DNA of 64,000 bases from Allacma fusca. Taxonomy: Eukaryota; Arthropoda; Collembola; Symphypleona; Sminthuridae. The stretch lies in assembly GCA_947179485.1 (NCBI GenBank), contig OX359245.1, forward strand, positions 50,331,067-50,395,066, in the 5' to 3' direction. Made by a program: the position numbers and the translations under genes. Positions 29,999-57,941 of the stretch are shown here, piece by piece; position 1 is the first letter of the stretch, and every line of letters starts with the position of its first letter. A model generated the notes under the pieces. That model was given only the letters and a program-made list of their open reading frames with translations. It was not told the DNA's origin and ran no database searches.

Positions 29999-30948
29999 TT
30001 AAATTGCATAGACCCGCACATAATCAATGATAAATGCGCCCCTGTCCCCTTCCCATGTGGGATACCACTGGTGACGAGCCTCCATGAATCTCAAATAGGC
30101 AAAGTTTTCATCATTCCTCCACGGCTTTTTGTCCTTATTTACCCCATTTAACCATTAATCCGGGAAATAGTTGTTCATACCACCCGCAGCCAAATTCAGG
30201 ATGAGATAAAACTAAATGATTATAAAACAAACCATGAATGACCGAATGAAGGGATTTCGTAACTGAATATCCGTGCAATTATTCTTATGTGTACAAACCT
30301 TCTGATCAAAAGGGGCTATTTTTTGATTCTTTGAATATCGCCAAGGATTCGGGTCGGATTTGTCGAACCAAGCATTTGGCCAGAATCCACCCGTCCCAGG
30401 ATCCACCGCTTTTTTTGGGACGTTATCCACCAGAAAGGTCAATTTTTCTACTCCAGAAATTTTAAGTTTCAGACGCATTCATTATTAGCTTTTTAAATGT
30501 TGAGTACATTCGTTGGTACACTACCATTCATAAAGCAAAAAGTAGCAAAACTGTGTACATATAAAGACATGATTTTTGGACATACGCCTAAACATTTTTG
30601 CTCCTCTAGAGAAAATCTCTTACAATGAAAGTATATACTTAGTAGTTAGCAGCTCTGCATCATTTTCTCTATGGGAACAAAAATATTCACAGACATTCGC
30701 ATTCACCCCAAGGTAATTCTCCATCATGCGTATAATTAAAAAAACTCATCATGCAAATTGTAAACTACACATCACAATTTTGAAATTTTAAAAGGCACTT
30801 TTTAAATTGCTTGTTGACCCCACTAACCATCCGTCCATTCCAAAGAGTACAAGTGGAAGTCCTGATCAAAGCCCGTTAAATTACTGGCGGATCCCAAGTG
30901 CTGTTCGAAACCATCCTTATTAAACTTGGGTCCGAAATGAAGCGCATG
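29999..30948 (-). pseudogene. GH16 beta-1,3-glucanase, 3' half (split by Polinton)
   Basis: This is the downstream part of a GH16 gene whose upstream part is at 57936-58901. Exon pieces are 30828-30948 (continuing the interrupted exon with ALHFGPKFNKDGFEQHLG), 30299-30450 (LTFLVDNVPKKAVDPGTGGF, APFDQK) and 29999-30211 (LILNLAAGGMNNYFPD and WYPTW...FIIDYVRVYA). These are the usual C-terminal beta-strand blocks of eukaryotic laminarinase-like GH16 enzymes. The last exon has an in-frame TAA at 30155-30157, directly after FPD, yet the frame stays open for 52 more conserved codons to the normal stop. So the gene is both split and nonsense-mutated, or there is another active copy elsewhere. The family hydrolyses beta-1,3-glucans extracellularly. 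Confidence 0.85.
30943..30948. repeat. target-site duplication CGCATG, left copy
   Basis: This hexamer directly abuts the left terminus of the Polinton and is repeated at 57936-57941. A 6-bp duplication is characteristic of Maverick/Polinton integration. Confidence 0.93.
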
Positions 30949-31102
30949 AGAAGAAGGTTTTAACGGAAAACTTCGTTGCATTTGCCCTCTGGGCATGTTT
31001 GTTCGTTTCGTTGTTGGGATCGGCCGTGAAATTCCGATTAAATGGTCTATAGACCTAGTCATTAATCACGAGATGATGCTATATGCATATAATATGCATT
31101 AT
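30949..31102 (+). repeat. Polinton left terminal inverted repeat (154 bp)
   Basis: It starts AGAAGAAGGTTTTAACGG. It matches the reverse complement of 57782-57935 with 3 mismatches, all within the short stretch near 31070-31072. Similarity stops abruptly after GCATTAT. The AG start fits Polinton termini. Confidence 0.95.
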
Positions 31103-31485
31103 GGTTGTGTAAATGAGATGTTTGGTGCCTATGGGATTTAATGGGTAGGTACATAATTTAAGGGTTTATGCTTTGTTTGTAAAAAAAAATATTGACACGA
31201 AAATTTGTTATGTAAGGTATATTTTTTACCCTTGATTGTTCCATGACTAATTTATTTTGTTAGGAATAATGTTCCCCACACGCACCCATGCCTACACCCA
31301 TAATAGCTATATTTTACAAAAATATATGATAAAATCAGACTTAATTTCAGTCTCAATGTTACAGTGTGATTCTTGAATACAATGTTGATTATGCATTATT
31401 CCAGTAATTTTAGAAATACATTATTTAATGTACATACATTTGAAATTGACAGAAAATTAATTAATGGCTGTCTCCCACTGTCAAC
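31103..31485. other. left subterminal spacer of the Polinton
   Basis: AT-rich, with no gene seen. It lies between the inverted repeat and the 3' end of the JmjC gene. Confidence 0.4.
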
Positions 31486-34114
31486 TTATTTCCCCCCTTT
31501 GCAGTTTTTTTGTAAGTGTTTGTTCCTGTTGGAACTGTTGGGAAACCCCTTGCCACACTTCTCGCACAAGAACTTGGCTGTAAAAAAAACAAAATTCAAA
31601 TTTAACTCTTACGACATTTTACGTTCATTCATTTGAACAAATTACAACTGTATTTTATAAAAATGTCCTTACCAGATTTATCGTGAGTGGGCAAATGTTC
31701 TGTCAATTTGCTGGCATAATAAAAAACCTTATGACATTCTTTATATGTGCATTTGAATATTTGGACCGTTTTTTGTTGGTCCGCTGATGGAGGATTGCCA
31801 CTTTCTGCCACTGCTTCGAGCTCCAAACTTGGCCCTGCTACTTCTTCTTGTACTAGCGAGATTCTGGCTATCAATTCCTGGTCCAGTCGTTTCACCCAAT
31901 CTAATGCAAAAGGTTAAAAGAAAATGCGCGTCAAAATAATTTCATGTATGTACATATATTCAGTTCCGAAATTATTTTCATGACTGTTGAAGCTTAAATT
32001 ATGCCATAGAAATCAACAATAGATAAGCTTATAATATATAGGAATACATATGTAGTACTAGTGTGCCAGATCCTCATAGATGGCGCATGTATATCATGTA
32101 CATAACATAATCTACGATAAGTATCCGAATATGGTAATTTTAGATACCCGGGTAGTTAGACCTAATGTCCAAGTATGAATATATAGTAAATAAATACCTC
32201 ATAGTAGGACCCTTGAAGGGGAGATACTTTGGTTATGATCTAAGTGTGAAAATTGGAAATAATTAGAAGCATGTAATATAATAGTGTAAGTTCACCTAAT
32301 TTGTAACTAAGATACCCGGGTAGTATACCTAATGTCCAAGTATGAATATATAGTAAATAAGTACCTCATAATAGGACCCTTGAAGGGGAAATACTTTGGT
32401 TATGATCTAAGTGTGAAAATTGGAAATTTAATATATAAGTGTAAGTTCAACCAAATTTGTAACTGTATACCCGGGTAGTAGACCTAATGTCCAACCATGT
32501 GACTACCACTAAAATCTCTTCTTATGGATAGTAATTGATTTTAAGATACTTAAATGAAAATGTAAGTGTTAGTTTCTTAGTTAATTCAACAACACTTTTA
32601 GTTATATTGGAAAATATATGTACGTACCATGTATTTAGATACGGAATATTACATAATGTTACCATAGGCACTTCAACTCATTTGTTTAGCTGTAAAATGA
32701 ACAGTTAACATTGTAAATTGAAGCAACAATAGATTTAAGCTAAAATGATTGGATTTGTGTAATTGATGTATGATATTATATGGACAACTATGAATGGGAA
32801 AATTAGGAAGTCAGAATAACTTTTGGGTGTGAATGGGAAAGACGTGTTGAATCAACTCAAGTTCCAGAATTATTATTACAGTCGAATTTTGGCTGTTACA
32901 ATGGCTAATTGTAAGTCTTACCGATTCTATTGGGAAGATATTCGAGCCATGCTCTCTGCATAGCGTGCCGATCATACGGAATAATGTCCTCATGGTCCAG
33001 TGTCTCGCACCTGCACATCCGGATATCCACTGCTAAGTACCGGTCATCGTTGTGGTTGATTCCACGGACAATGTTGAACCCCGGGTTATGAACTTGATGG
33101 TACGTATTTCCGTTCAACAGAAGCAGGTCCCCGGGATTTTGTAGCACAACCAAATACTTGACCTGCCACTTCTCCAAAAGTCCCGGAGTAAACATTAGTT
33201 TGGCACCTGACAATTTCCGGTCGCATACCTCCGCCGTCTTCTTAAATTGGGATGGAAGACTTAATTGGACTAACTTCTGGAAGCGAAGTTTTTCTTTGGG
33301 AGCAATGGTAATCCAGACTTTTGTGGCTCCTGCTACATGAAAACTTGTCGTGGATAATCCGTAATCATCCAGATGCATAGGAGCTGTTAATAATAAAAAT
33401 GGAATTCTTCAGTTTACAGAGTTCTGGGTTACACAATGCATGCCAAAAAAAAAATCAAGCATTATAAATAATAGCTAATTTTAAAAACTTACTTGAGGAG
33501 TTCGGGCATCCATAATAATTGAAGGGAATGTTTAGTCCTTCGATGCCTTTGACAGTTTTGTCTGCAAACAATGGCGCTTCTAGATTGGCCAAAGAAAACG
33601 GGTTGAAAAAATTTGCAGTAACTTCCCCCGATAGATCAAAGTCGTTTATGTACTGACAACTAGTATCAGCACATAATTCCACGAGATCATTCACAATCTT
33701 CACTACATCCGTTTCTTTCTGGCACATATCCTCTGGGTTGTAATTGGGCCCTGTCAATTCTCCTCGGTGATACTCGGACACCAAACCGATGGGCTGGATT
33801 TTCTTCTCCTCCTTCCGGAAAACTCCAGCTTGTCGTAATGGTTTGTACGAACATTGCTGGACGTACTTGGCGACGCATTGGTCCTGTATTCTGTCCAAAT
33901 CAAAATATTTTCGCTCGGCCATTTCGACTTCTGGTGGCAGCGAAAACATTACAGCATGGTCGTTACTGGCCGAGACGGCGTGGAAAGGAACCGGTTGGGA
34001 TATGAGCCACTTGTATTCGTCAAGGTTAAATTTTTTTGGCACTAACAATTGACAATATTCATTAACTTGATGAATCTGGTTCTGTACAAATCGTCTTCCC
34101 CGCTGTTGCTGCAT
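31486..34114 (-). CDS. JmjC domain protein with two C-terminal C2H2 zinc fingers
   Basis: Four exons: 33493-34114 (coding part), 32922-33383, 31673-31900 and 31486-31577. They sum to 1404 nt, 467 residues. All three introns are phase 1 with clear signals (A|GTAAGT, G|GTAAGA, G|GTAAGG). The JmjC core lies at about residues 205-330. It has the Fe(II) ligand motif HLD (about H211 and D213), then SFHVAGATKVWITIAP, and a distal TYHQVHNPGFN block (about H303). Two C2H2 fingers follow: CTYKEC...H-x3-H at about 412-434 and CEKCGKGF...H-x4-C at about 442-462. JmjC proteins are Fe(II)/2-oxoglutarate dioxygenases, often histone lysine demethylases, and JmjC plus C-terminal fingers recalls KDM4/REF6-type enzymes. 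It sits outside the left 20-bp array but inside the inverted repeat, so it is cargo of the element. Activity and substrate are inference. The ATG follows a possible splice acceptor at 34122, so a 5' leader exon is possible. Confidence 0.82.
32143..32495. repeat. tandem repeat (about 155-168 bp unit) in a JmjC-gene intron
   Basis: Units begin ATACCCGGGTAG at about 32144, 32312 and 32466. Each continues ACCTAATGTCCAA; the first two also share the run containing AGGACCCTTGAAGGGGA. That makes two full copies plus a partial third. The array lies in intron 2, the one long intron of the gene. Confidence 0.85.
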
Positions 34115-34121
34115 CTCCACT

Positions 34122-34615
34122 CTGGAACAAAAAAAAAATACAATTATTAAATTAACAATAATTATTCTAATCAAACAAAAATAATTCCCTTATAAATAAT
34201 ATTATATAAATAAACTTTTGATGACTATATGTTGCATTATATGGAGGTGTAAGCACTTTTAAAATACAAAAAAAATAAAAATATGGTTACCCTTATTACG
34301 TATCCTTGAGAGCAATTGATGATGATGACTGTGCAGTTTCAATATTTAAGACCAAATGTAAGGAGAATATCCGTGCTCGTCTGAAGAAAAACTAGATGCA
34401 TGTAGATATTAAAATAAAGCGCGCTAGTGTGTAGCAGTGATGGGCATTTTTTTCACTTTGCAGCTCAGCATAACCCTAGTCATAAAAATTAGCTAAAATG
34501 TCATTGAAAACAAAAACATATCATTTGATTTAATAAATTCGTATACTACTATAACCTTGCCAAAATACAAATAAAAAAGTAGGGAATAAAGAACTTAAGT
34601 GTGAAATAAAGAGCT
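34122..34615. other. 5' flank of the JmjC gene, no gene seen
   Basis: An AT-rich stretch between a candidate splice acceptor (TTTGTTCCAG on the minus strand, ending at 34122) and the left tandem array. The JmjC promoter or a leader exon should be here. Confidence 0.35.
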
Positions 34616-35620
34616 GAAATAAGGACTGAAGGACTGAAATAAGGACTGAAGGACTGAAGGACTGAAATAAGGACTGAAGGACTGAAATAAGGACTGAAGG
34701 ACTGAAGGACTGAAATAAGGACTGAAGGACTGAAATAAGGACTGAAGGACTGAAGGACTGAAATAAGGACTGAAGGACTGAAATAAGGACTGAAGGACTG
34801 AAATAAGGACTAAAGGACTGAAATAAGGACTGAAGGACTGAAATAAGAACTGAAGGACTGAAATAAGAACTCAAGGACTGAAGTAAGGACTGAAGGACTG
34901 AAATAAGGACTGAAGGACTGAAATAAGGACTGAAGGACTGAAATAAGGACTGAAGGACTGAAATAAGGACTGAAGGACTGAAATAAGGACTGAAGGACTG
35001 AAATAAGGACTGAAGGACTGAAATAAGGACTGAAGGACTGAAATTAGGACTGAAGGACTGAAATAAGGACTGAAGGACTGAAATAAGGACTGAAGGACTG
35101 AAATAAGGACTGAAGGACTGAAGGACTGAAATAAGGACTGAAGGACTGAAATAAGGACTGAAGGACTGAAATAAGGACTGAAGGACTGAAATAAGGACTG
35201 AAGGACTGAAATAAGGACTGAAGGACTGAAATAAGGACTGAAATAAGGACTGAAGGACTGAAGGACTGAAATAAGGACTGAATGACTGAAATAAGGACTG
35301 AAGGACTGAAATAAGGACTGAAGGACTGAAATAAGGACTGAAGGACTGAAATAAGGACTGAAGGACTGAAATAAGGACTGAAGGACTGAAATAAGGACTG
35401 AAGGACTGAAATAAGGACTGAAGGACTGAAATAAGGACTGAAGGACTGAAATAAGGACTGAAGGACTGAAATAAGGACTGAAGGACTGAAATAAGGACTG
35501 AAGGACTGAAATAAGGACTGAAGGACTGAAATAAGGACTGAAGGACTGAAATAAGGACTGAAGGACTGAAATAAGGACTGAAGGACTGAAATAAGTACTG
35601 AAATAAATACTGAAGGACTA
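34616..35620. repeat. left minisatellite array of a 20-bp unit
   Basis: About 1 kb of AAATAAGGACTGAAGGACTG. Interspersed higher-order variants gain an extra AAGGACTG half-unit in the left part. Unit-to-unit divergence is very low. The same unit in the same orientation forms the right array at 56412-57021. The translated reading frames through it are by-products of a 20-bp period, not proteins. Confidence 0.95.
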
Positions 35621-36063: not shown

Positions 36064-37233
36064 ATGTCTGATTTACCAGATTTTAGTAAGTACTGCATGA
36101 CATTAATATTTCAATTGCTTTTAAACGTACCAATTTGACGTTCAGGTTGTTGGTTTATTGTATTATGTTTTGGATTGAAATTAGGCTGCTACGATACTTT
36201 GGGTGGTGGACACTGTCCGTCATGCCTCATTGATGGGGGACAGTTCTTTCGCTTGGCAAATGACTCTTTTTGCTGCGCATTTGACCTTGAAAATGTTGAC
36301 GGTGGGATTGTCAAGCTTTTTCGGGATGTGACAAGCTGCCCAGTAGTTGTTCCAGAAAACGACCCAAATCTTATTGACACTAGCGTGGCCCAGTTTGGTT
36401 TCACTCCATTGTTGGCCGCTGGAATGAGTACGTTAATTTTTTGTTGCTGTTTGGGAATGTATTCTCAACAAATAAAAACGTGAAAACCAGTGCTGGGGTG
36501 GCGTTAAAATATTCCCACATAAATATATTGTCTTCATCATAACATTTTAATTTTGCTAGGCGCTCTGGTTGTAACTGGGTTCTTTGTTACTGGATGTTTT
36601 CTTTGGAAGTGTATTTTCAACCGTCTCAGGCGAACCGATAATTTCACGGTCTCCAGCAACGCCCAGACCAGGCACGAAGACATTGAAATGGTTTCGTTGG
36701 TTGACACAGCATCCAGAGATGATGAATTGGAAAATGATCTGACAAGGCAGGCAGCTATTAGCCTAAACCCCGAATTACCTGGAAATGAAAACCCAGGAAT
36801 TGTAGTTGACCGGCCCATATCACATGAGGCTCCGCTTGACGAGACACGTTTGGTTATTACTGTGGGAAACCCGCTGTATGATCGAGTCTACGAAAATATA
36901 CACCGTGGCCATGACTGCTTTTCTGAAGTCCCACCGATTCCTCCGAGGTCTGAAAGTGGGTGTGGTAATGCTGATGCATCAATTTATCAGCGTCCAAATA
37001 ATTTCGGAGGCCGTGGGAATCGCGTGAGAACTGCTGATTTGGGTGGAATTCGAACGCAACCCTTCTTGACACTTGCTTCTAGCACCGACGTTGATGAGAC
37101 AGAGGCTGCAGAGGACGAGAAAATTCTTCAAAAGCTCCGAATGTGGACTGCTAATGGTGGCGGGAATGTGAAGTTTACAAAGAAACGGAACGAATCAACA
37201 TCCCAGACTGAGTGGGAGGCTTCCAATTTTTAA
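36064..37233 (+). CDS. Cys-rich single-pass membrane protein 1 (PSI-like ectodomain)
   Basis: Three exons: 36064-36085, 36185-36427 and 36560-37233 (939 nt, 312 residues). Both introns are phase 1 (A|GTAAGT and A|GTACGT donors, TTAG and CTAG acceptors). The short N-terminal region has no obvious signal peptide. A Cys-rich segment follows (GGGHCPSCLIDGG, then a CC pair), then one hydrophobic helix at about residues 85-110 and a long acidic tail. The tail contains NPLYDRVYENI, an NPxY-type sorting/PTB-binding motif, and PPIPPR, a proline-rich motif. The overall plan mirrors the gene at 55618-57375: tiny first exon, Cys-rich ectodomain, then helix and tail. A role as virion or envelope-type membrane protein is plausible but unproven. 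Confidence 0.65.
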
Positions 37234-37652
37234 TGGCAGTGTTTAGATGGTTTTGGGGTTTCTTTTTTGGTAACATTATTTCATTAGTTTTAGATAGGCA
37301 CAACACTTTGTTCGTGTTTTGACTCCGCAGCTAATTTTTATTAATTTTTATTTATTACCAAATATAAGTAGAATAGCATGGGTGTATACTCATTAACCCA
37401 GACCATGACTAATGTTTTTATACGGACTAAAATACAGATTTTACTCGACGCAGGAGTTTAAAACATTTGTTGTTCACTAATGTAGTGTGGTAGAGGCATA
37501 CTATTTATATTCCTATTCCTTTCAGTTGAAAAATAAAGTTTGTTGAAAAAATAGACCATTCCTCCTAGTTGTATTCAGATAGGATCTTATTTATTAACGG
37601 GCAGTTGTATTTTATGTTTTGGACTGAATACACTTTGTGGTTCACCTTGACA

Positions 37653-38946
37653 ATGTCTCTGTCACGTGTACTTTTGTGTACTGTCTGCCGCGAAGACTTA
37701 CTGCAGGACGTACAACCTGATTTTGTCCTCAAGAAGAATGTGCACGAAGCCCAATTTTCGTCACCCACGTTTTTGGACCAGTACGAGTCTAGAGATTTGC
37801 AGAGATTCACAATGGGGTACGTAGTGTCAATAGAGAATAATCCAGCAGCACCCACTAATTGTATGCACATGTTTCACATGAGCTGCATTTGCAAATATTC
37901 GCAAGAGACGTGGACAAATATATTTAAAAACGACGTGTGGTCAGAGGAAGCTCTTAATCTCTACTGCCCGGGGTTCACACAGGGAGCATACTGCAAGAGG
38001 CAGTTCAGGGGTGTGCAGGATTTGAGATTCCTCAAGTTTGATGAATTTGACACAGAGTCTCACTGGTGCAAGTACAGAGGACAAAAAGAAACCCCAGCTC
38101 AAAAATGTCTCATAAATATGGAGGTGTATCGCGACCATAAAAATCGAATGGCAGGATTTCGCCGCCGCTGGGAAGTAGGGGTATACGATAGCCCAAAAAT
38201 TGAAGACCCTAAGGAAACCATCAGTAGCTGGGAAAAACTTTGCCGTTGGGATGAATTTAGGAAGTAAACTGGCCCGCCAAAAAAGAAGCCCAAGGAATTC
38301 GTGGCTTCAACTACGTCAAACGACCCCACTCCAGGACCATCGAACCGTGTAACAGGCAAGAAACCCGAAAAATACCGTGACGTATACCAAATGCTCAAGA
38401 AAATGTCAGATGATCACAAGAAAAAGCAAGGTAAAATATTATTTTTTAAATGGGTATAAAGGTGCATTGCATGGAATGTTAAGCTATATGTGGTAATTAT
38501 TTGCAATCAAATTGTAATTAAATGCTGGGCAATTTATTGCAGGTGAAACTTCTTCAATTTCAAATTTCCCATTGTCTGGTCATGAGCTCGACCACTCACA
38601 AAAGCGGATGGGGGAAGTTGCAGTAATCCTAGATGAGGTGGTTAGGGATTCATCCAAGAATAAGGCAGAAATTTCGATAGTAGACCTTGTTGATGATAGC
38701 GGTGATGTACAAGCTGGCTACTCTCAAATGTCGTCACCAAAATCACAATTATCGCATCCGCTCAGAACAAACCAAAGCTGCCTGGACATTTCCGGAGGCG
38801 TTGGTGTAGATGATGACGATGACTTTAACGGGGTTGGAGCAAACTTTGGTATGCCCGACGACGAGGAAACAAGGTCTGAAGGACTGGTGATCCGCGAGTC
38901 TCCAGAATCCCCGGATGACAGGTCTGAATTTGATGGCGATCTGTAG
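37653..38946 (+). pseudogene. RING-type ubiquitin-ligase-like gene with premature TAA
   Basis: Exon 1 is 37653-38430 and exon 2 is 38543-38946. The phase 1 intron has donor G|GTAAAA and acceptor TTGCAG. The N-terminal part has CTVC, then CMHMFHMSC (a RING-H2 core C-x-H-x2-H-x2-C), then CP-x7-C, consistent with a variant RING. An in-frame TAA at 38265-38267 follows RWDEFRK. The same frame stays open for 54 more codons with a basic PPKKKPK motif, then continues through exon 2 for 135 codons. The tail has ISIVDLVDDSGD, which fits a SUMO-interacting motif, and an acidic DDDDD stretch. Either the long form was inactivated by nonsense mutation, or the truncated 204-residue RING product is what is made. 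RING proteins recruit E2 enzymes for ubiquitin transfer. Confidence 0.62.
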
Positions 38947-40570: not shown

Positions 40571-40924
40571 TTTGGAGAAAATCAAAAATTGTAATAAAAT
40601 CAAAAGAATGTATGAAGCAGTAATTGACAGCTGAACGAGTTGAATTGTAAAATGTGAGTAAATTTTAATAAGCTCGTGCTTTTATAGTCAGCAGAAGCAA
40701 CCATGAGGGACTATCACTCCACTTTACTTATTTCGGAAGGGCTGTTTATTTTCCTACAATCTAATTTCACCCATAATATTCCCCCTGTTCGGGTACAACC
40801 ACTAAAGATAAAATTCTTTGCTGTCTCTGGATTGGTCCTCTGATTTGGTTAAAGTGGCCAGATTTTCAGAGTCGTTAAAACAGAGTACAATTCCAACTGC
40901 CAGTGACAGCATTACAGAGCTATA

Positions 40925-42704
40925 ATGGGGGATATACATTTAAACAAGAGCCTGGTTGAAAAATGGAAGCAAAGTTTCAAACAGAGTAATTTGCTCAAAG
41001 AAGTTCCAAGACCCGAAATAGCTTTTGAACATTTGACGGGAGAGCAACAAGAACTTGTCGTGTTAGTACGGGAGCGACTTGAAACGTCTATGCTGGACAA
41101 TCCGTTGCGAATAATACTTCATTCACCTGCTGGGTTTGGGAAGTCCTGTGTTTTAAATCACATTAAGTACATGCTAGAGTGCAAGAAGCGTAACAATCCA
41201 GATTTCGACTACCGCTTTGCCGTCCTTACTGGCATGTGTGCCTCTCACCTCAAGATAACAACAATTCATTCGGCGTTCAAATTACCCACAAATTTTGGTG
41301 GCAACTTTTTGAAAAATATTCAAAATCGATCCTATTTTAAACCCGATCAGCTGGAAGAATTTAAACGAATTAAGATAATTATTTTGGATGAAATGTCTTT
41401 AGTGTCACTGAAACTTTTACACGCAATTGATTTGATAATGAGATCGTCAGATTGTGATTATCAGCATTTGCCATTTGCTTCGCGTTCGTTGATTATCTGT
41501 GGGGACCCCCTCCAAGTAAAATAATAAAATAAATGCACTTCTCCATTACCAAGTTATATTTTATTGAGAGTATAAGGTGTCAAAAATTAAAACAGGTTTA
41601 ATTAACTATGCGTTTTTATGCAACTTTAGCCATTAACCATCGAAGAGAGTCCAATATTTTTCCCAGCTTACCAGAAGCCAGGACACACATTTCACCAGAC
41701 GTCCCTGGCCTACTACGAAATAAAAAACGTGTTTCGATTAACCAAACCCATGCGCCAATTTGGTAACGAACCCGAACAGCTAAAATTCCGAGCATTTCTC
41801 ATGCGACTACGCTATAACCGGGCACTACCAGAAGACGTCGATTTTGTTCGTTCGCGATTGCAATCAAATCTACCCGAAACCGAACAGAGGGAATTTAACG
41901 AGGCTCTGCACGTGTTTTCGCTCAAATGTGAAGTCAAAATGCACAACATGTACGCTCTTATTCTTTTTTAATGTGTCACCGTCGAAATAATTACCGACAC
42001 GTAAATAATTTCACTCCTACAGTACCTAGTTCAAAGTGTGTAATGATTCACTACAGTATTATATTTTCAGGAAGATGCTTATGAAAATGTTTAGCGATGA
42101 TGAGATAATCGCTACTTCCAACGGTATTCAGACTTTGCATATTGCCATTTCAGCCCCCGTCTTTATAACACGAAATCTAGCAACTGATCTGGCTGTTGTA
42201 AATGGATCCAGAGGTCACGTAGTTGACGTGATTTTTGACGCTAAGCGTGACCAGCCAGACGTTTTCCTTCGTCACATTAAATGCATCATCGTTGATATTG
42301 AGGGGTATTTAGGTCCAAGGTATGCTTCGGGTCGAGGTTCCGGATTCCCGGTTTTCCGCTACTCGGAAAGTGGTTACTGTCATGCATTGCGTGACTTCGC
42401 TCGAGCAAACCCATTTCCGTTGCAGCTTGGGTGAACAACGACAAAGCACAAAGTTCAAGGACTTTCACTGAACCGCTTAGCTGTGAATCTCGGAGCCAAG
42501 GAGATTTGGGCCAAGGTTGACTACTTGTGTATGTCCAGGGTGAAAAGGTGGGACCATATAATGTTTACGGACGAACACGTTGCCCCCGAACGTTTTACAG
42601 ACAAGTCAAACGATATTATTGATGCTACAGAGCTACAACAGTACGAAATTCGTCGGCTCCACAGGTTTTGGAAAAGAAGATGCAACGCAGTTTGTAATAA
42701 GTAA
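40925..42704 (+). pseudogene. PIF1-type superfamily 1 helicase with in-frame TGA
   Basis: Exons are 40925-41515, 41630-41949 and 42071-42704 (1545 nt, 515 codons in one frame). Visible motifs, in order: Walker A HSPAGFGKS, TTIHSAFKL (motif Ia), IIILDEMSLVS (DE-box), ICGDPLQ (motif III), LTKPMRQF (motif IV region), NLATDLAVVNGSRGHVV (motif V), and KHKVQGLSLNRLAVN followed by YLCMSRV (motif VI). An in-frame TGA at 42432-42434 falls between motifs V and VI, at a position where PIF1 proteins commonly have Trp, so TGG to TGA is the simplest explanation. The truncated product would lack motif VI. PIF1 helicases unwind DNA 5' to 3'. In this element it could have served replication together with the polymerase that converges on it. 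Such a helicase is not a standard Polinton gene. Confidence 0.85.
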
Positions 42705-42814: not shown

Positions 42815-45800
42815 TTACTTGGGAGAGAAACCATGCGGAACACTATAGTTTGATTTAATTGTGTCCGGAAATGCCCTAGCTAAATTTATATAATTAAAAC
42901 CTAAACGCTCAAATGTCACCAAACACAATTTATTTCCAACAACCCGCGATTTTTCAAACTCGAATTTAATTGTTTCATTATTCACACTTGCATTTTTATA
43001 CATGGTATGAGTAAACATACAAGAAACATTTTTCGGGATTGATTTGCACTGCGAGGTTTGGTTTCCGGAATATGTCAATACCGAAAACTCCTTGGCTCTT
43101 AATGCCACGATTTCACCAGTCGAAAGCGACTCAATTTTAATTTTACCCGGTAATTGGCGACGCCCTTGCCTTAAATTTGGGTATGTTGACCCATATAATT
43201 TGAAGATCAAGTGAGACTCTGGCAGCTTAGACAAGTCAAATGTGCTATGATTCTTTGCAATTGTTTCCAAAAACTTTTCTTCTGCGTCACAAAATATTTC
43301 TAGATAGAACCCATCACAATCGACATACAGTAACCTCGAGTCAAATATTGTTTTAATATTCTGATAATATGAATTATAAAGAATTATTTTGCTCTGCTCA
43401 AGAATCGAGAAACCTATAATTTGTGCGTTACAGGAATTTACTTTCTTTGGGGCTAAAGTAAAGACGCTGCAATTTGGGGTTAGGGAATCAAAATCTTTAC
43501 AAAGGGGAGAGGAAATCAGTTTGTGACAACTATCTCTACTACAACAGAACGTGGTTGTGTTGCAGAACGCGTTCCCAGAAAGAAATTTTCCAGACAGATT
43601 ATTTGAATAGCTTTTTGCTTGATTACTTTCGATTTCACTGGTAGCTTCTATTCTTTGCGAGAGTACGAAATCAATATACGTTTTAAATAAACATGTTTGG
43701 TGGAATTTAATTCCTCTGTGTATCTGCCCTATGCGCATACCAAATGCCACAAAATATCTCAAGAGTCGACCATGTATGACATATTTTGTCTTATTGTAAC
43801 ACGTACCCATAAGCTTTCTCTCGCTCTGCCAAACGGACTTAGTTTCTTTCTTCCCCGAGGATCCCAAAAACGATAATATCAAATGTTCAAAAGCTAGAGG
43901 TAAATCAGATGTGTCCCTGTGTAAATCCGTACTATATGTCAAGTCTAACTCGAGAATGTAATCACAGTCTCGGGGTTTCTCCACGATTGAAATGTGTCTC
44001 CAATCCTGTTTTGGAGGAAACTTCAAGGCATTCAGCTCCTCTCTGCTCATCCACTCGAAATTACTTGTAGGAAAATAAAAATATTGCATTGTATATGCAT
44101 ACATTGAATTTATATCAAAATGTGTTATAAATGATTTTCTACTGCTTGGATTGTAGCCCCCGCAAGCACCATTCCAGACATTATTGGCTCTGGTAACTTT
44201 TGTGCTGCTGTAACATATGCCGCCCCTGAGATTAGAACTTATTAATTTTGTTATACTGGGCTCACTACATATGCCTATTTCTCTTTTACTGTAGAATAAA
44301 AACGCCTGAAAAGTAAATGCAGACACTGTGGACACGCCTGTTGGATCTAATCGAAATGAGTTGTAGGCTCTTTGTCGGTATCCTTCCCAAACCGCAGCCA
44401 ACTGTGACGACTCAATACACCTATATAGGTTTGCTATACAGGATACACTCTGCAGAGAATAAATCTGGGATATTTTGTTGAATGCTTTAATTTGTTCGAC
44501 CGTAAATAATTCGTGGTCATTAACCGATACAAAAATGTTTCCTTTGTCTTCTGGTAATTGCTCAAGATGCCGCAGAGACGCACACCGCATTAAAATATCA
44601 ATTGGTGGCAACTGAATTATTAACAAAATAATCGTTTTCATGCCACATTTAGGTGGGCTGTTTGGGAAAAATGAACTAAAACACTGCTCTAAAATACATA
44701 GAAATCCGGACGTGTAATCCATCGATGCCAAAATTTTTGATAGTGGCTCGTTAATAAAATTCATAGTGTTTGTGAACCGTATTCTTGCCTTCTGTGATCG
44801 TTTTGTAAAATGTGGGTTTTGCATATTGGACTTGTCTTTATCCCAATCTAAACCTGATTTTGGGCATATTTTCGGAATAAAAAGTATATCCGAAGCTATT
44901 TCTATCTGAATAATATCCTTTGGAGATTTCGCTAAGACACGAATCCCAGAGGCACTGTACAAACTTGTGCCAAGCCCGGTAATAATTAGTCGAAAATCTA
45001 AGCCTTTGGGGGAGTGGATTAAAATCGGTAAATAAGTTTTTGATAAAATTCTTAAATTACAATATTGACAGATCACTGCCTCAATTCTTCCCCCAGCAAC
45101 ACTGCTTCCAAAATGATTATGGTGCATTGTTTTAAGAATCGGTTTTGATTCCGAGTTTTGAACGCACATATCCTCATAAATTTCCTCGTCTGCTGTACTT
45201 ACTACACCAATCATATTTTCGTCCCAAGATTGGTAATCCCAGGGTACACGATGGCTAAACCTTCTTGTAGTGTTGCCACTATTTGTGAACTCGGCATTAC
45301 AATATTCGCAATTAGTGATACTTTCAAATTCAATCATCTGCTCTACAGTTGGCAGTAAAATGTTGTTGGTGTTTCTAATAATAGTCAAAAGTTCTTTGGC
45401 CCAGTAGAATGCGCGGGTAAAAAAATGCTCAATCGCTCCCTGCTTAGCGGAATACGTTTCTGCAGCTACTATATGGGAATTCGTCATTTTTGTCTCCGCT
45501 GACATAGTGTCTTTACGAACAATAACAAAGGAGTACCCAGCCAAATGATACACTAACTGCTGCTTATTTCCCGATGCTGCTGCCTGACCATCTCTTTCGA
45601 CACCCTCTTGGTCTAGTGAAAAAGACAGGTACATGACATAGGGGAAATGAAGTGTTAAATCAAGACGATTAAACTTTATCTTTGTTCCTTCTGGAACAGC
45701 GCGTTCAGCCGGTTTGTCAATTCTGCAGCGCGTATTTACAAAGGCGTCAATTCCTAGGGTTACATGCTTTGCTAAATCTGCATTACATTGCTCAATGTGG

Positions 45801-47101
45801 TTCTGATACGGCATTTTGGTAGAAACAAATAGGACGCAATTCTTGCATACATAACACTTACTTTTCTGGGAGCTCAAACGACTTAAAAACTTGTCTAAAT
45901 TGTGGATGAGTACAACGTGAAATTTATTAGACTCTATAGTCCCTGTAGACCTTTTCTGAATTAAAAAAAGACTGATTTTAGTGGAAAATGAGAAAGAGCT
46001 CCTTCGCGCCAAGTAGATACGTTTATTTTCGTGTGACAATACATTTACACACACACGATTATTTTTTTCAAAATTGCAAATACTTTCATAAATGCCTACA
46101 ATGCCGTCACAATCTGCACACGCACCATTAAAATCCAACTTTGAATAATATCGGCGCCAAGTGCTACAATTTTTTAGGTTCATCCGTTTACGCTTTGGTA
46201 ACAACTTATTAACCTTAATTGCGTCATCCCAATAAATACTAGCTGTTACAGCTACCTTAAAACAGTCGCGAGTTGTTTTAAAATTCACGATGCCACAAGA
46301 TTTAAATTGCATTTTTAAATATTGCCTAATACGCGCAGTTGCTAGCGGTCTATACTCTCCAACCTTAATTTCCAGGGATTTAAGTTTAAGAATACGGAAA
46401 TTGCTACCATTTTCAATGAACACCGATTTTTTAGTCCCAATTTCATCTACACAACTAATTACTAAATTCGAAATATTTTCTTCTGTAAATAAAATGTGAT
46501 GTTCACTTTGAAAGAAGTATAAAATTACTTTTTGCTGCACAACCTCATCGTTTTGAATGATTAACTGTTCCATATCTACTCCCAACTTAAAAGCTATTCT
46601 AATAGACCCGTGAATTACGATTAGTTGCTCCAACAATTTCTTAATTGCAGCATACATACCACTAAAAGCTTGGTCAATTTCTAAAACTACATCGTTAAAA
46701 TAATAAATGTATGTAACAATAGCCCCTAGATGGCTTCTTGAAAATTCCCGAAACGTGGACAAGTCCAAGGGATTTCTCCTTTCGGATCCTCCAACTTGGT
46801 TGCTGGGGTGAACACATTCGTGTTCGTCGATGTCGATAAAATACATCTCACACGGTGCACATAGATGTCGCGCGTTAACATGGTTGCGATATTCAATGTA
46901 ACGTCGAGTTTGAAATGGGCACCCTGGGACGGGGCAATGTAAAAACTATAAAATATTCATTACACAATTACACAAAGTCCATAGCCACAAAATAAAGAGA
47001 ACGAAATATTCAAATTTGTTGGCGCTTACTGAATTCGACGTGCCCGATTTTGTAGGATCAGGATAAATGTTTGTTGGGTAACAAGGTGACTCGTCGTCCA
47101 T
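42815..47101 (-). CDS. POLB: protein-primed-type family B DNA polymerase
   Basis: Two exons, 47030-47101 (24 codons) and 42815-46945, with a phase 0 intron (A|GTAAGC donor, TATAG acceptor). Total is about 1400 residues. The start of exon 2 encodes a C2H2 finger, CPVPGC...H-x4-H. Palm motifs are clear: motif A HFDINSMYAYTM (about residue 967), motif B NNLSGKFLSG (about 1139) and motif C LLYVDCDGFYLEIF (about 1231), plus a KEFSVL block like the KxY motif. In the N-terminal half, LIHNLDKFLSRL resembles Exo II, and CYVCKNC begins a second Cys/His cluster. Exo I and III are not obvious by eye. The enzyme would replicate the element from its inverted-repeat ends using a terminal protein. The reading frame is fully open, the best-preserved large gene here. 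Confidence 0.93.
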
Positions 47102-48805: not shown

Positions 48806-49457
48806 TCACTTTGGCCCGTAAACCTCCGTTTCGGACGATAAAAATAATTCGTTACGCGCAAATAGCCGGAAGCGGCGATGGAGGGGGTGAAAACTTAAAA
48901 ACAGGAATCCAAATTCCCTACTATTCAAAGCTCGTGCATAGGCAGCTTTTATAAATGCGCTATTATCCGGGCATACTTGACTCGCAATACAGCGAATAAT
49001 TCTTTTATCTCTCGAAAACGGAAACAGCAGTAATATCTGGGTATTTACGATAGCTTCTCTTATGCAGGGGACAAAAGGATTTTGTAGAATAACAGCCACA
49101 CACTTTCAAATGATGGCTTATTTTTGTGAATAGATTATTTACAAGGTCGGTTAGTTCACAGCGTTTTTTCAAAACCGACAGCTGGTCGTCAATCACGACG
49201 AACGAATTGGGAACAATTTGTGACTCTGTAAGGGAAGTTACAAATGAGACGTCAGGGTCATTTAATTGGAAATCTGTAAAATCTTCTTGGATATAATCAC
49301 AGAGATAAATTACTTTTTCGATTTTTTTTGAAAAAATTTCGTCCCTTCTTCTAATGAGCTCCAATACACACTGGGTCTTTCCTGTAAAGGATTGTCCCAG
49401 AATTTGGATCGTGCTGGGAACCGGTATTTCCTTTGGAATAGTATTTTCAAAATCCAT
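48806..49457 (-). pseudogene. ATP: A32/FtsK-HerA-type packaging ATPase with 1-nt frameshift
   Basis: The first part (from 49457) begins MDFENTIPKEIPVPSTIQIL and has Walker A GQSFTGKTQ (about residue 22) and Walker B SFVVIDDQ. It then has NNLFTKISHHLKV, which is followed in Polinton ATPases by a sensor strand with Gln-Asn. That continuation is present in the +1 frame, starting around 49096: ILQNPFVPC, then RDKRIIRCIASQVCP, to the stop at 48806-48808. So the frame is broken at the GTGTGTGG run (complement 49096-49103), with one base too many. The whole is 652 nt, about 216 residues if one base is removed, a normal length for the family. These enzymes pump DNA into capsids. Programmed frameshifting is an alternative I consider less likely. 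Confidence 0.9.
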
Positions 49458-49563
49458 CGATATGTGACTCCAATATGCTGTGACGCGTGCAAAGACAAAT
49501 GAACACTATTTACATTTTACAAAATCCAATCAGTTTTTATTCTTTTATTTTACAACATAAAGG

Positions 49564-50221
49564 TTAAAATATATTTCTATTAATACAGAAACATTTTGCC
49601 CTATTTATCTGATATTTTTTTGCCGTGTTATATAAGCCTAAAGGGTTGAACCCATTTATAGTATTTACAAATTTGGTAACCATGTAATCGTTACGCATTT
49701 TATAATGTCTACTAAATTTACTCAAAAACTGTTCAAACGATTGTCCAATTCCCATACAATACAAAAATGTGACACAATAATAACCACATGAATAGCTTGA
49801 ACTGCTTTGCAAGGCCATGCAATTTTCTTTGACGATTTTTAATTGCTTGGGAATTTTAACTTGCTTGTAGTTGTAAATGGGCTGGCGAAATGAGTCCAAA
49901 TAGTAACACCTTGCTGCAGATACGATATATATTGCTATCCAGTGTTCACCTATAATATACATAATGCGGTTATAACGAATGTACATCACGACAATAACTA
50001 TATGAGAAAACTACTTTAGTGCTTCAAAAAGTGTTTATCTAATAGACATTTAAATTACCTGGTTCGTTGCTCCTTGCCGTGTTTATAACTAAAGCTTGGG
50101 GGAATTTTTCAAATGACAGCGATTGTTGTACGTTGTCAGCCGAGCAGACCACGACTGGGATAGAGAGTCCTTTAGCATTATACAGGGTAGTTAGACCGCG
50201 TTCGATGCTCGACGTATTCAT
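49564..50221 (-). CDS. PRO: adenovirus-type cysteine protease (maturation protease)
   Basis: Exons are 50059-50221 and 49564-49949, with a phase 1 intron (G|GTAATT donor, TTATAG acceptor); 549 nt, 182 residues. The catalytic His is in HWIAIYIV at the start of exon 2, followed by the acidic partner in YYLDSF. The oxyanion Gln and nucleophile are in LQSSSSYSCGYYCVTFL (Q, then the first Cys after SYS). This order H-D-Q-C matches the Ulp1/adenain clan. In adenoviruses and Polintons the enzyme cleaves virion precursor proteins. It lies between the ATPase and the major capsid gene as in other Polintons and appears intact. Confidence 0.92.
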
Positions 50222-50235
50222 TTTGTAAAATTGAA

Positions 50236-51670
50236 TTAGTCCACCGTGACAAACTTGTTTTTATCCACCTCTATACATTGCTGTCCCAAAATATACATTA
50301 TAATTGACGTATTTTGTTTGAGGGCCTCTCCAAATCTCAGGGATATTTTCATCTGCCCACTTTTATTGACAGAGAGGCTGTTTGAGGACAGTGGAAGCAA
50401 TTCTATGCATGTAAATGCATAACCTATCAGGATAATAAAGCACAAACATTTATTTCCACACACTTACAAAAATATATAATGTGTATTGCAACAAATGCAG
50501 GGGTAAATTACCTCGCTTCCAGTTTCTGATAGTCACCCCGTTCCCGACTATCTGTGAGGCTGCAAGCCGCCTTAAAGACCTCAAGGCAAGTGTCACATCA
50601 AAAACACCTGCTTCACCGTTTTGAAACTCGTAAGTAAACTCCCGGGACTCTTGCGTGTCGTTGCTCCATTGGAATGAAACATTGGAAATACTGTGTGGCT
50701 CAAAGTTGAAAGCACTCGACGATAGCTTTCCCAAGTATGCCTCAGTGGAAACGAACCCCAAGACTATGCACTTTGGTATTCTCGACAGAATGATAGAATC
50801 TGATTGGTAGGACGAGAGGCCCTTGGCTATATTAATACATTTGAGTTCGGTTGATGGGCATGGGAATTTCAAGGTTTTTCCTTCATTGAGTAATCTTCGA
50901 TGCAATTGAAGGACCCCGGTAGAGGCCACCTTTCGACTCATGTAGAGCGTTGCCTCGTTAAGAACCACACTATATGGGCAACCGGATATAGATGCTTTAA
51001 CATCTGTCTTGCAATCGAGGCAAAACTCTGGGTTGGAGCGTCGTAAAATTATTTTTAGTTCGGCAAGTGCCGGGATATAGCGCTGTTGCATAAACAAATT
51101 TGCAACAATGCTTCCACTACATACAAACTGTTGCGAATTTTTAGCGATGTTGTATCGTTCTGTAAACCCATTGTTATTGGTGGAATAGTCGTTAAAGTTG
51201 TCATCAGGGTAATAGAAGCAGTCCTTAAGTTTCCCAGCCTTTTCTTCTGGGCTAGTAGATAACACTTTGTGGAAGTAGGCCAAGTGCGGGTAATTCCCGT
51301 AACTATCATAAATCGGCACATTGTTTAGAAATATTTGCACATTTGAAAAAAACGAGTCGAAAAACAAGTTTGAGGGGCAAACCAAATCCGTCGAATCACA
51401 CACGTTTCCATCACTCCTCACAATTTTTGCCTTAATTTTCAAGAAACTATCCGCCAAGTCAAAGTAACTGCTTGAATCCCCCGACACCATAAAATGCAGT
51501 GGCTGATAATTGTCTGAAAACGACTCTACAGGGTAGTAGGGGAGATAATCAACACTGTTTAACGTGCTGACGTCAGTGGGAAAGTTTTGAAATGGTAGTA
51601 GTTCACTTCTAATCGATTCTTGAGACCCACTAAACACTGTTGGGTCATCCTGAAAAACTGACGACTCCAT
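50236..51670 (-). CDS. major capsid protein, F54H12.2-type double jelly-roll
   Basis: Exons are 50512-51670 and 50236-50423, with a phase 1 intron (G|GTAATT donor, TGATAG acceptor); 1347 nt, 448 residues. The protein follows the F54H12.2-like family: an N-terminal YLPYYPV segment, YFDLADSFLKIKAKIV, SNLFFDSFFSNVQIFLNNV, YPHLAYFHKVLSTSPEEKAG, a central RYIPALAELKIILRRS, and a C-terminal end GQMKISLRFGEAL...IEVDKNKFVTVD. Members are the Polinton/adintovirus hexon-like major capsid proteins that build the icosahedral shell. The second exon encodes the last beta-strands, so splicing is needed for a complete fold. It is flanked by the protease and the core protein, the expected neighbours. No break is seen. 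Confidence 0.88.
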
Positions 51671-51696
51671 ATCTGCAGCGAATTGTGAGAGGAAAC

Positions 51697-52086
51697 CTAA
51701 TGTCGTGTTCCACAGTTTCTTTTAATAGTTGATTTTCTTCTGCGTCTTGCTCCACCACTCTGCAATGGCTTTGGATTTACCCTTCCTTTCCTCACCCTCC
51801 TGGTAACCCTTCTGCCACCAGTTTTGGAATTGCGTTTGCGTATTCGCCCACCTGTCTGCCTCCTTCGACGTCTGTGGCCGGAAGAAGATTGCTTGTGTGA
51901 TTGAGTTAAGGGCACAAGATAGGATGAAGAATCGGTGGAGAGTCCGGTACCCCCGCCCAGTCCAGTAATGCGGGTGTCTATACGACCACCCACCTGATAA
52001 TTAATCATGTCTCCGCCTTCGTCGTTGTGGTGAGGGGGTTCTAATGTACATGCGTCCTGGTCGTCTTTGCAAACAATATCCCTCAT
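51697..52086 (-). CDS. arginine-rich core/DNA-condensing protein
   Basis: One exon, 129 residues. The N-terminal part is acidic to neutral. From about residue 70 there are dense basic runs (GHRRRRRQTGGRIRKR, GGRRVTRRVRKGR, GGARRRRKSTIKR) separated by GG. Such a composition resembles adenovirus core proteins and would neutralise packaged DNA. The TGG repeats could include protease sites. It sits between the two capsid genes, 1 bp from the minor capsid stop. Confidence 0.72.
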   Translation of the reverse strand: MRDIVCKDDQDACTLEPPHHNDEGGDMINYQVGGRIDTRITGLGGGTGLSTDSSSYLVPLTQSHKQSSSGHRRRRRQTGGRIRKRNSKTGGRRVTRRVRKGRVNPKPLQSGGARRRRKSTIKRNCGTRH

Positions 52087-52087
52087 C

Positions 52088-53647
52088 TTAATATTTTGGT
52101 CTTAAATGAAGGCTGATCACTGTCTCCGAGTCCGGAACAAATTCACTATTTCTCAGGAATTCGTCTAAAAATTTCACGCGCAGTTTTGACACTATGTCGC
52201 TTGTCAGTCCCAGGTAAACAACTGGTTCGAAATTAATAGTTGTTGGGGTATTATAGTTTCCACTTGCCAAATCCGTGTCACGCAAAAGGGGGAGGGTAAA
52301 ATTAGAGTAGTAATTATTTTGAACACAATCTGCTAGAATTAAAAGCCGTTTGGCCTCACCAGCTTCTTTTGGTGGGAAGTAAATGTGTTGGTTGTCATCT
52401 ATAAAGTTTTCTTGGTTTTCCTTTGCAATAATATCTGGAGACACGGTAAAGCGTACCCCTTGTTTAAAAATGGCACTTGCAGCGATTCCAAAAAAACCGT
52501 TTAGTGTGGATGAAAGCAAAATTGCTGCATGTGCGGGTAGGCCACAAACAAAGATTTCTCCGCTTTTAATTTCGAATTTAATGTCATATTCTCGAAATTT
52601 TTGAGTGTTGAATGTTGTATTTATTCCTGTAATAACGTCGTCTGCATCCCTACTCTTAGGCTCTTTCATATAGTAAAGCTGTCTACTGTACAGTCCAAAT
52701 GTAAAATAAATTCTCTCTCGCTTCTCAATTTTTTTAAGTTGTTCCTCGCTGGCATCAAGTTCACTAACAAATGTGCCCACTGTAAACCGGTTTGAAACAA
52801 AGCCAAAAGCGTCGGCCACTTTTGGTGGAATTAAAACAAACTGCCCAGGTTTTGAGGTAAATGATTTAAATTCCAGCGTTGTTTTCCCATTATCCAACCG
52901 ATTAAATTCCAAGTCAAAGCCATTATCTTCCAAACTTTTATTAATAGCATCCACAAACGAGGTTAGATTTGCATGACCTTTATTGACGTGTGCATATAGC
53001 GATTCGTATATATTGTCCACAAATATTATGTTCTCTGCTGCGGCCTTATCACTGGAAAATTTGACCAACTCCACATCAAGAGACTCCCCCTTAGTAAACG
53101 ATTGGCTAAAAGCGCTTTCTTTGCACGTCTCACTGGCTGAATGTGTGCCTAAATAAAAATGCAGGCGCTGAAACCCAAACAAAGTGGCTAACTTACTGGG
53201 AATTCGCAAGTGCTCATCTTCCGCCAATTCTCCAACCTTTATTTCCACCAAAAACTCTGGTTCTGGGTTACTTGTTATTATAGTTGTTTTAAACCAAACT
53301 GGTATTTTTTCGTTTTTAAAAGAGTCGTTGAGCCGACCAATAAAACCAATCAGGTCATCACCGGAAATGTTTTGAGTGAATTTCCTTACGACGGGGGGTT
53401 GGATGTTAGGGAAAAGTGGTTGCTCGGGGGTAATTGGTTCGACAGGAGTTGGGTCTGGAACTATTTGGCTAGGGTCTCTTAATGTAAATCTCAAGCTGAC
53501 TACACCAATTTCATACGCACTCTGTGTACACACGATTGGTGTCTTAAATGTGGCAACCAAATTGTTAGGTGTCGAGCTGGCGTTCATGTTGCTGCTCAAC
53601 GTCATCCATATGGGTTTGTGTTCCGTTAGATGATTTACGATCGACAT
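52088..53647 (-). CDS. minor capsid (penton-like) protein
   Basis: One open exon, 519 residues. The N-terminal half has the arrangement typical of Polinton minor capsid proteins: MTLSSNMNASSTPNNLVATF, then a strand set including YEIGVVSLRFTLRD. Duplicated-looking blocks follow, in which a FV/D--N-SL or FI-RLNDSF helix precedes a LATLFGF or VADAFGF motif. The C-terminal part ends VVYLGLTSDIVSKLRVKF and ETVISLHLRPKY, resembling the terminal jelly-roll strands. Its start overlaps the last exon of the integrase gene by 83 nt in a different frame. Role assignment (vertex capsomer) is by resemblance and gene position. Confidence 0.7.
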   Translation of the reverse strand: MSIVNHLTEHKPIWMTLSSNMNASSTPNNLVATFKTPIVCTQSAYEIGVVSLRFTLRDPSQIVPDPTPVEPITPEQPLFPNIQPPVVRKFTQNISGDDLIGFIGRLNDSFKNEKIPVWFKTTIITSNPEPEFLVEIKVGELAEDEHLRIPSKLATLFGFQRLHFYLGTHSASETCKESAFSQSFTKGESLDVELVKFSSDKAAAENIIFVDNIYESLYAHVNKGHANLTSFVDAINKSLEDNGFDLEFNRLDNGKTTLEFKSFTSKPGQFVLIPPKVADAFGFVSNRFTVGTFVSELDASEEQLKKIEKRERIYFTFGLYSRQLYYMKEPKSRDADDVITGINTTFNTQKFREYDIKFEIKSGEIFVCGLPAHAAILLSSTLNGFFGIAASAIFKQGVRFTVSPDIIAKENQENFIDDNQHIYFPPKEAGEAKRLLILADCVQNNYYSNFTLPLLRDTDLASGNYNTPTTINFEPVVYLGLTSDIVSKLRVKFLDEFLRNSEFVPDSETVISLHLRPKY

Positions 53648-54794
53648 CTTCAGGTTTTAAAACGTTTTGGTCTCGTCCCTGCTCCACCAATGACAACTCT
53701 TGCAAATAAAATTTTCCCTCGAGTGGCTCGTATGTGCCCAAGGTTACGAGGCTATATGTGTAAGGATGAGTATTGTGTACACCTCCCACTTCAAATATCT
53801 CGCGGGAAAAGTTCTCGCTGTAACCTATTTCAAAAATAATTTAATTTCTAAACGTTTCGAATAAAATTGATACGTTTTAATGCAATTATGCAAATATATT
53901 GTTTACCATACCCTTTTCAAAAAGGATCTTATGACGTCCTATACGGACCTGGTCACCGATAGCAAGCACAGAAGGCCTTCTGGGTAACGACTTCTGGTGT
54001 ATGTACTTTTTATATACTTGCCACCACACATCAAAGCTGTCTTCAGGTTTTATAGAGGCAGGACTCCTCTTAGTTGAGCTATGCACTGTGTGATTGTAGC
54101 TTGTAACAAAGTCTTGGAGTTTATCGTCAAATTTAAAGGTATTATGATGTGTTAAGTACCTCTGAATCCTAGTGAACAATGTTTTGATTAACACCTCGGC
54201 TGCAGCACTCTTAATGGGCGAGGAAGTAGAATAAGGCACAATGTGGTGTTCATCTAAGAGGCCAAGAAAAGCCCGTGACCGAAATTCAGTCCCTGTACAA
54301 ATAAGTATGCCAATTTTATTTTATAAGCGCTATAATTTACATCTCCGGATCTAACACAAGCCAACTTGCTTACCTTCGTCTGTCCACAAGTAGTCGGGTT
54401 TTCCAGGGCTGGCTTCCTTAAGGATGGATTTAAACGCCTTAATTACGTGTTCTGAACTTTTTGATTTTAGCATTCGACAGTATGCATACTTACTAAGAAA
54501 ATCAATGCATACAAACACACACTTGTTACAGTTGTTATACGGGACCCACTTTTCCGATAATATTTTCAAATCTGCACACCAGGTAGAATTCACCAATCCC
54601 ACTTGTACTTTTCGCCTCGTAAATTTCCGCTTTATGGGCTTGTGTAGGCTGTAACTTCGAATGGTTTGAAGTTCAGCCTCAACTGCCTTCTTATCCGTCC
54701 ACTTTTTCCTCTGTCTCAAAAACCCATCAAGGCCAGAAAACGACCCCGACAGTCTTTGATTTGCGTAGCTCCTCCTTATTTCTCCAGAGCCCAT
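53565..54794 (-). CDS. INT: retroviral-type DDE integrase
   Basis: Exons are 54374-54794, 53912-54292 and 53565-53824 (1062 nt, 353 residues). Both introns are phase 1 (G|GTAAGC and G|GTATGG donors; GTACAG and AAATAG acceptors). Catalytic acids are visible: D in STWCADLKIL, D in YLWTDE, and E in IKSAAAEVLIKTL. Upstream is an N-terminal GSFSGLDGFLRQRKKW helix. After the core come YNHTVHSSTKRSPASI and a C-terminal SH3/chromo-like part: RIGRHKILFEKG, then REIFEV and LEGKFYLQELSLV. This enzyme inserts the element and makes the 6-bp duplication. No disabling change is seen. The 3' exon runs into the start of the minor capsid gene. Confidence 0.92.
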
Positions 54795-55288: not shown

Positions 55289-55617
55289 TTTTACTTTCCG
55301 AGTTTTTGAACCGGAATTTAACTAGACTACTCTAAATGCTTGGAGTGACTGGTGTGGCTCATGTCGATTTACTGTGGTATATATGCCATCAAAAACAAGT
55401 GTTAGATGCAAACAATGTTTATTACAACGATTACAAAACGAACAATGAAATTACAAAAAGAAACGGTTGGATATTATAGTACGATGTGGCAACCACGACT
55501 ACAACGACAAAGGTATGCGCATATAAACATGTGTACACACTCAATTATAGTTCATTAGCATTAATATAATCTGGCACCAAATACATTTTCCTAAATAATG
55601 GTTAACAAAAACGAGTA
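55289..55617. other. spacer between zinc protein and membrane protein 2
   Basis: AT-rich, no gene seen. It should hold the promoter of the leftward integrase/zinc-protein unit and the 3' end signals of membrane protein 2. Confidence 0.35.
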
Positions 55618-57781: not shown

Positions 57782-57935
57782 ATAATGCATATTATATGCA
57801 TATAGCATCATTCTGTGATTAATGACTAGGTCTATAGACCATTTAATCGGAATTTCACGGCCGATCCCAACAACGAAACGAACAAACATGCCCAGAGGGC
57901 AAATGCAACGAAGTTTTCCGTTAAAACCTTCTTCT
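57782..57935 (-). repeat. Polinton right terminal inverted repeat (154 bp)
   Basis: This is the reverse complement of 30949-31102 with 3 mismatches, ending CCTTCTTCT at the element edge. Confidence 0.95.
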
Positions 57936-57941
57936 CGCATG
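57936..57941. repeat. target-site duplication CGCATG, right copy
   Basis: Identical to 30943-30948. One copy belongs to the original GH16 exon and the other was made on insertion. Confidence 0.93.

Follow-up and report, generated by a model that had tools for sequence, protein, structure and literature searches.

The DNA analysed here, referred to as the window, is a stretch of 64,000 nucleotides from the springtail Allacma fusca (contig OX359245.1 of assembly GCA_947179485.1, positions 50,331,067 to 50,395,066). It contains a Polinton of 26,987 bp, at window positions 30949-57935, which carries close to its left end a spliced gene for a protein with a JmjC domain and two C2H2-type zinc fingers (Table 1). 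Terminal inverted repeats (TIRs) starting with AG and target site duplications of 6 bp are hallmarks of Polintons. Besides both of these features, the element shares with Polintons/Mavericks a length of 27 kb, a family B DNA polymerase (PolB) and an rve-type integrase, and a protease-like frame and a possible packaging ATPase are candidates for two further common genes. It differs from them in carrying the JmjC/C2H2 gene and two arrays of a 20-bp unit, and in that its capsid genes are without profile support.

Table 1. Features of the Polinton and of its JmjC/C2H2 gene, in window coordinates
Feature	Position	Strand	Remarks
Target site duplication, left copy	30943..30948	.	CGCATG, identical to right copy
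Left TIR	30949..31123	+	begins AGAAGAAGG; outer 121 bp identical to right TIR
JmjC/C2H2 exon 4	31486..31577	-	second finger (C2HC), stop; Pfam zf-C2H2 at aa 440-460
JmjC/C2H2 exon 3	31673..31900	-	linker region and first finger
JmjC/C2H2 exon 2	32922..33383	-	JmjC core: HLD, K229, distal H303, CRC
JmjC/C2H2 exon 1	33493..34114	-	ATG, N-terminal region; homologous in A. fusca models
20-bp tandem array, ~49 copies	34614..35602	+	upstream of JmjC gene
Possible membrane protein, two open frames	36139..37233	+	by eye; no Pfam match above cut-off
RING-like protein frame	37569..38267	+	Pfam matches sub-threshold only
PIF1-like helicase, in pieces, probably spliced	40907..42704	+	PIF1 E 1.3e-13 (40907-41521); Pif1_2B E 0.0023, sub-threshold (42030-42431)
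DNA polymerase B, uninterrupted 1376-aa frame	42815..46945	-	PF03175 E 3.1e-16
Possible packaging ATPase	49005..49505	-	P-loop-like GQSFTGKT by eye; no profile match
Adenovirus/Ulp1-type cysteine protease-like frame	49564..50010	-	PF02902 E 0.0042, PF00770 E 0.11 (sub-threshold)
Pair of long frames (423 and 522 aa)	50450..53656	-	where capsid genes are expected; by place only
Integrase (rve), three frames	53886..55321	-	rve E 1.3e-6, 29.1 bits against cut-off 32.6, one frame
Right array of the 20-bp unit, ~30 copies	56412..57022	+	near right end, same orientation
Right TIR	57761..57935	-	pairs with left TIR
Target site duplication, right copy	57936..57941	.	CGCATG, perfect 6-bp match

The two TIRs differ at eight of 175 positions, all of them at TIR position 122 or deeper. 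The identity of the outer 121 bases points to a recent insertion, although gene conversion could also account for it. The polymerase is of the organellar/viral type of family B, as indicated by its PF03175 match. The rve score comes from a single integrase frame cut by an intron, and a GT/AG intron would link the DEG and TEF parts of the gene. Since the integrase apparently bears an intron too, introns are not foreign to this Polinton. The protease-like frame had no match in the PDB, and the frames of 423 and 522 aa had no significant match in Pfam, NCBIfam, PHROGs or the PDB. NCBIfam matches of other frames were at chance level, and the three of them that name a toxin subunit (E 0.027-0.094) were dismissed as noise. 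On the plus strand, positions 36139-38946 hold cargo-like frames without firm matches, including the possible membrane protein and the RING-like protein. Taken together, we read the element as a complete, young-looking Polinton in which the capsid genes are putative.

The Polinton sits in an apparent tandem cluster of chemosensory receptor genes, visible as related minus-strand frames at 3314-24537 and 61127-62983. Two of the eight frames tested had a Pfam 7tm_7 match (E 4.3e-5 and 0.003, both below cut-off), and the other six had none.

The JmjC/C2H2 gene lies on the minus strand, with the left TIR on one side and the left 20-bp array on the other; 537 bases separate it from the left end of the Polinton. 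The preliminary description, made from the letters of this region, had proposed a four-exon gene with an HLD motif and a distal histidine in a JmjC core, together with two C2H2 fingers, and enclosed by inverted repeats. The gene begins and ends exactly where it had been placed, and its four predicted exons splice into a single open frame of 467 amino acids plus a stop codon. All three introns, of 109, 1021 and 95 bases, have GT/AG borders, and the enclosure is borne out by TIRs on both sides together with the perfect 6-bp target duplication. GC content by codon position is 0.52/0.34/0.49 in the coding sequence, against 0.23-0.31 in the introns. An AG splice acceptor stands immediately 5' of the ATG, which suggests a further, non-coding 5' exon upstream. 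The second intron holds a tandem duplication (32142..32494, offset by about 168 bp, 87% identical).

Profile searches with the spliced protein, which the same description had recommended, placed both domains above their cut-offs. Pfam JmjC matched amino acids 200-313 with 62.4 bits (cut-off 24, E 6.9e-17), and zf-C2H2 scored 28 bits (cut-off 25.2) over two stretches. Both fingers have canonical spacing, the second closing with Cys instead of His (C2HC). Splicing of exon 3 to exon 4 yields the finger linker H-DKSAK-FLC, which has the length usual between neighbouring fingers. By these features, the gene is real and well supported, far beyond chance.

Support for the two halves of the gene comes from different sources. 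Gene models of A. fusca agree with exons 1 and 2 and with the junction between them. Exons 3 and 4 are covered by none of the nine models, so that the fingers are supported by this window alone, through the finger profile match, a linker of the usual length and clean splice sites. Five of the nine models stop or jump at one common point (DDR), possibly an alternative donor, whether predicted or real. In the window, the frame continues beyond DDR and takes in a CRC motif aligned with CTC of KDM4C, and the longer exon is preferred for this reason.

Among solved structures, the nearest JmjC domains are those of KDM4 demethylases. Up to E 1, the JmjC profile matched 41 distinct sequences, 36 of which are KDM4A-D or yeast Rph1. 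The remaining five are rice Os05g0196500, JMJ14, JMJ13, a 2-oxoglutarate oxygenase entry and KDM5A (E 0.63), and none of the 41 is by name a KDM2, 3, 6 or 7. In alignment with KDM4C, H211 and D213 of the HLD motif and the distal H303 fall on the iron-ligand positions, as the early identification of the core had implied. K229, G193, Y200 and N317 are identical to KDM4C at the aligned positions. From KDM4, we take H211, D213 and H303 to be iron ligands, K229 to be the lysine that binds 2-oxoglutarate (2OG), and G193, Y200 and N317 to form the methyl-lysine pocket.

Other positions have changed. Relative to KDM4C, N198 is replaced by S221, S288 by G315 and the Glu ligand E190 by Asp, and the zinc site beside the JmjC core keeps three of its four positions, with a Gly (G267) where the His would be; the roles of these residues in KDM4 are assumed here. 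PHD and Tudor domains are a feature of the animal KDM4A-C. JmjN, PHD and Tudor were all absent among the five Pfam families that the protein matched up to E 1. Thus, the protein shares with KDM4 (JMJD2) the HxD/E...H motif, the 2OG lysine and three pocket positions, but it differs in lacking these three domains, in having Asp for Glu and an incomplete zinc site, and in its added C2H2-type fingers. Given the absent domains and the changed positions, we class it as a KDM4-like JmjC protein rather than a KDM4. NCBIfam returned no family for it, and structure predictions were too poor to use, with a mean pLDDT of 35.9 for the relative P0001 alone and 32.6 for an alignment of six A. fusca models.

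Relatives were found within the same species. Searching 3318 candidates with the protein gave three with E of 1e-3 or less, and searching 4862 with the alignment gave nine with E of 10 or less, all nine being A. fusca gene models. Because only proteins of comparable length with short words in common can be reached in this way, the result does not confine the family to A. fusca. The closest relative covers 57% of the protein with 95% identity. HLD is kept in eight of the nine models, the exception being P0008, which drops out of the alignment ahead of the motif. Of the five that extend to the distal His, four retain it and P0003 has Tyr there. P0006 changes frame within the core. With these two changes and the motifs kept elsewhere, the family includes members that look intact as well as decayed ones. 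P0002 (89.7 vs 71.5%), P0004 (87.8 vs 79.3%) and P0003 (85.0 vs 81.5%) are more similar to the window in exon 2 than in exon 1, whereas in the closest model, P0001, exon 2 is not the better conserved (93.1 vs 94.1%).

Two models, P0008 and P0009, run into a protein repeat resembling HSVADRVA, as would arise from a minisatellite of about 24 bp close to the gene. These tails are possibly copy-specific arrays or gene-model errors, and no relation to the window was found for them. Scans of IMG/VR viral contigs, which reach close relatives only, gave 28 and 24 pattern-matching stretches for the JmjC protein and two for PolB, none of them a confirmed relative, and no matching stretch for the 423-aa frame.

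The reading we favour, which we regard as about evenly balanced between right and wrong, is that a young, apparently intact Polinton carries a spliced and intact gene for a KDM4-like dioxygenase with fingers that keeps the element transcribable against host silencing. Such a gene would derive, introns included, from a KDM4-type gene of the host, and its product would be expressed in the nucleus. The fingers would hold the predicted enzyme on chromatin, where it would demethylate histone lysines, most likely H3K9me2/3 and/or H3K36me. Removal of these marks would leave the genes of the element transcribable despite host silencing. The open frame, the coding-like composition, the strength of the JmjC match, the KDM4-type structure matches and the kept catalytic positions argue for this proposal, as do the higher conservation of exon 2 in three relatives and the identical outer TIR bases. 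Counting against it are the want of a second Polinton known to bear the gene, the missing KDM4 features, the core damage in P0003 and P0006, and the lack of homologue support for the fingers.

The strongest competitor is that the gene is a passenger, a member of a springtail JmjC/C2H2 family of host genes and pseudogenes that this Polinton copy caught once and without benefit to itself. We consider this possible, if on the unlikely side. It bears directly on the earlier designation of the gene as Polinton cargo. In the physical sense the designation stands, since the gene lies within the TIRs and the target duplication of this copy; membership in the lineage of the element is another matter, and the PolB comparison leans against it. 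A search with a 740-aa piece of PolB, at E up to 1e-10, returned four proteins; the two that come from A. fusca are 43% and 34% identical to it, so that more than one Polinton lineage may be present. These two are encoded on contigs of 3,692 and 7,589 bases, and none of the nine JmjC models is on a contig of either size. Linkage to a Polinton was shown for none of the nine. As it stands, the comparison of nine JmjC relatives, up to 95% identical, with two distant polymerases leans against a shared history, and both this and the decay seen in several of the relatives are what a captured family member would predict.

These observations are not one-sided. Decayed multicopy relatives are also expected of a gene borne by an element, and PolB genes may be missing from the protein set owing to repeat masking. 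The gene itself is fully open, with all of its junctions and catalytic positions kept, and the element around it looks young, all of which speaks against a passenger.

A different enzymatic role is improbable by our assessment. The protein could act on a target other than histone methyl-lysine, such as a protein of the element, either as a hydroxylase of the JmjC type or as a DNA-binding protein without catalytic activity. The replacements of N198 and E190 by Ser and Asp, the incomplete zinc site and the absence of histone-reading domains would fit this, but HxD...H, the 2OG lysine and the three pocket positions are all kept, and the PDB matches are to KDM4-type enzymes. Least probable, and in our view quite doubtful, is that the gene belongs to some other mobile element, nested in the Polinton or amplified beside it: its place at the Polinton edge, between TIR and array, and the nine JmjC models against two of PolB found in A. 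fusca would suit such an origin, but its introns are kept, which argues against retrocopying, and positions 30800-36000 contain just seven short inverted pairs (14-18 nt). A nested element around the gene was rejected, as there are no convincing terminal repeats, and the sole pair that brackets the whole gene (18 nt, 89%) has its right arm inside the 20-bp array and is therefore taken for chance.

The favoured reading, an anti-silencing role, has precedents. How Polintons and other large selfish elements keep being expressed in the face of host silencing has, to our knowledge, no settled answer. The preliminary description had suggested that the encoded enzyme could open heterochromatin or block silencing of the element's own copies, and the opening of heterochromatin remains plausible by analogy, fitting the KDM4-like pocket and two published systems. 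The first is that of the giant viruses endogenised in Amoebidium. In that study, the KDM4-like JmjC genes of the giant-virus insertions are reported to have retained several exons, JmjC genes are present in 39% of the insertions, and it is proposed that they could help to avoid silencing by host chromatin (PMC11244446). The general idea of a KDM4-like anti-silencing cargo is thus already in print. Both cases involve multi-exon genes of KDM4 type without PHD or Tudor domains, yet in Amoebidium, a protist related to animals, the genes belong to a giant virus and not to a Polinton, and they encode the JmjC domain only (PMC11244446).

The second system is that of the VANC proteins of Arabidopsis VANDAL transposons, described in two papers as anti-silencing factors that recognise repeats in their own elements (PMC5735166, PMC10398659). 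The likeness lies in a silencing-lifting protein encoded by a transposon, which is a predicted role in the present case, and in tandem repeats located in non-coding parts of the element that encodes it. VANC is nevertheless a separate protein family, and array binding by the fingers described here is hypothetical. We know of no JmjC domain in VANC. TET/JBP genes, which according to Iyer et al. are reportedly carried by fungal transposons, offer a looser parallel: they too are Fe/2OG dioxygenases on a DNA transposon, but they act on DNA bases and belong to another dioxygenase family.

In one open-access literature collection, the Amoebidium study was the only one found for Polintons together with JmjC or jumonji, none was found for Polintons together with Collembola, and no description was found of the animal Polinton setting, the C2H2 fusion or the paired arrays. 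The words demethylase, JmjC and dioxygenase are absent from the text of a paper found for Polinton cargo genes (PMC6431247). If the proposal is true, a Polinton with its own targeted histone demethylase would give a direct answer, in an animal, to the question of continued expression, and would be a natural fusion of DNA-binding fingers with a chromatin eraser. Together with the Amoebidium case (PMC11244446), it would suggest repeated capture of KDM4-type enzymes by DNA viruses and virus-like elements.

What the fingers might bind is a narrower matter, on which the arrays offer a candidate. Both arrays consist of the unit CTGAAATAAGGACTGAAGGA and lie 21 kb apart. They run in the same direction, which rules them out as part of the TIRs. 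All 66 occurrences in the window of a 16-mer taken from the unit fall within the two arrays. Counted on both strands, TGAAATAAGGAC occurs 43 times in the left array and 28 times in the right, and is found nowhere in the other 25,387 bases of the element or in the 37,001 flanking bases. The rest of the element contains GGACTGAA twice and TGAAGGAC four times, and neither is present in the flanks. Since VANC proteins recognise the repeats of their own elements, it can be conjectured that the two fingers tether the KDM4-like demethylase to the 20-bp arrays, such that marks would be removed from the element and not from the host, in convergence with VANC/VANDAL; we think this unlikely, though worth stating. 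As a lead only, and not as evidence, finger-code rules that we presume to apply suggest that the second finger may prefer GAA, a triplet present in the 20-bp unit.
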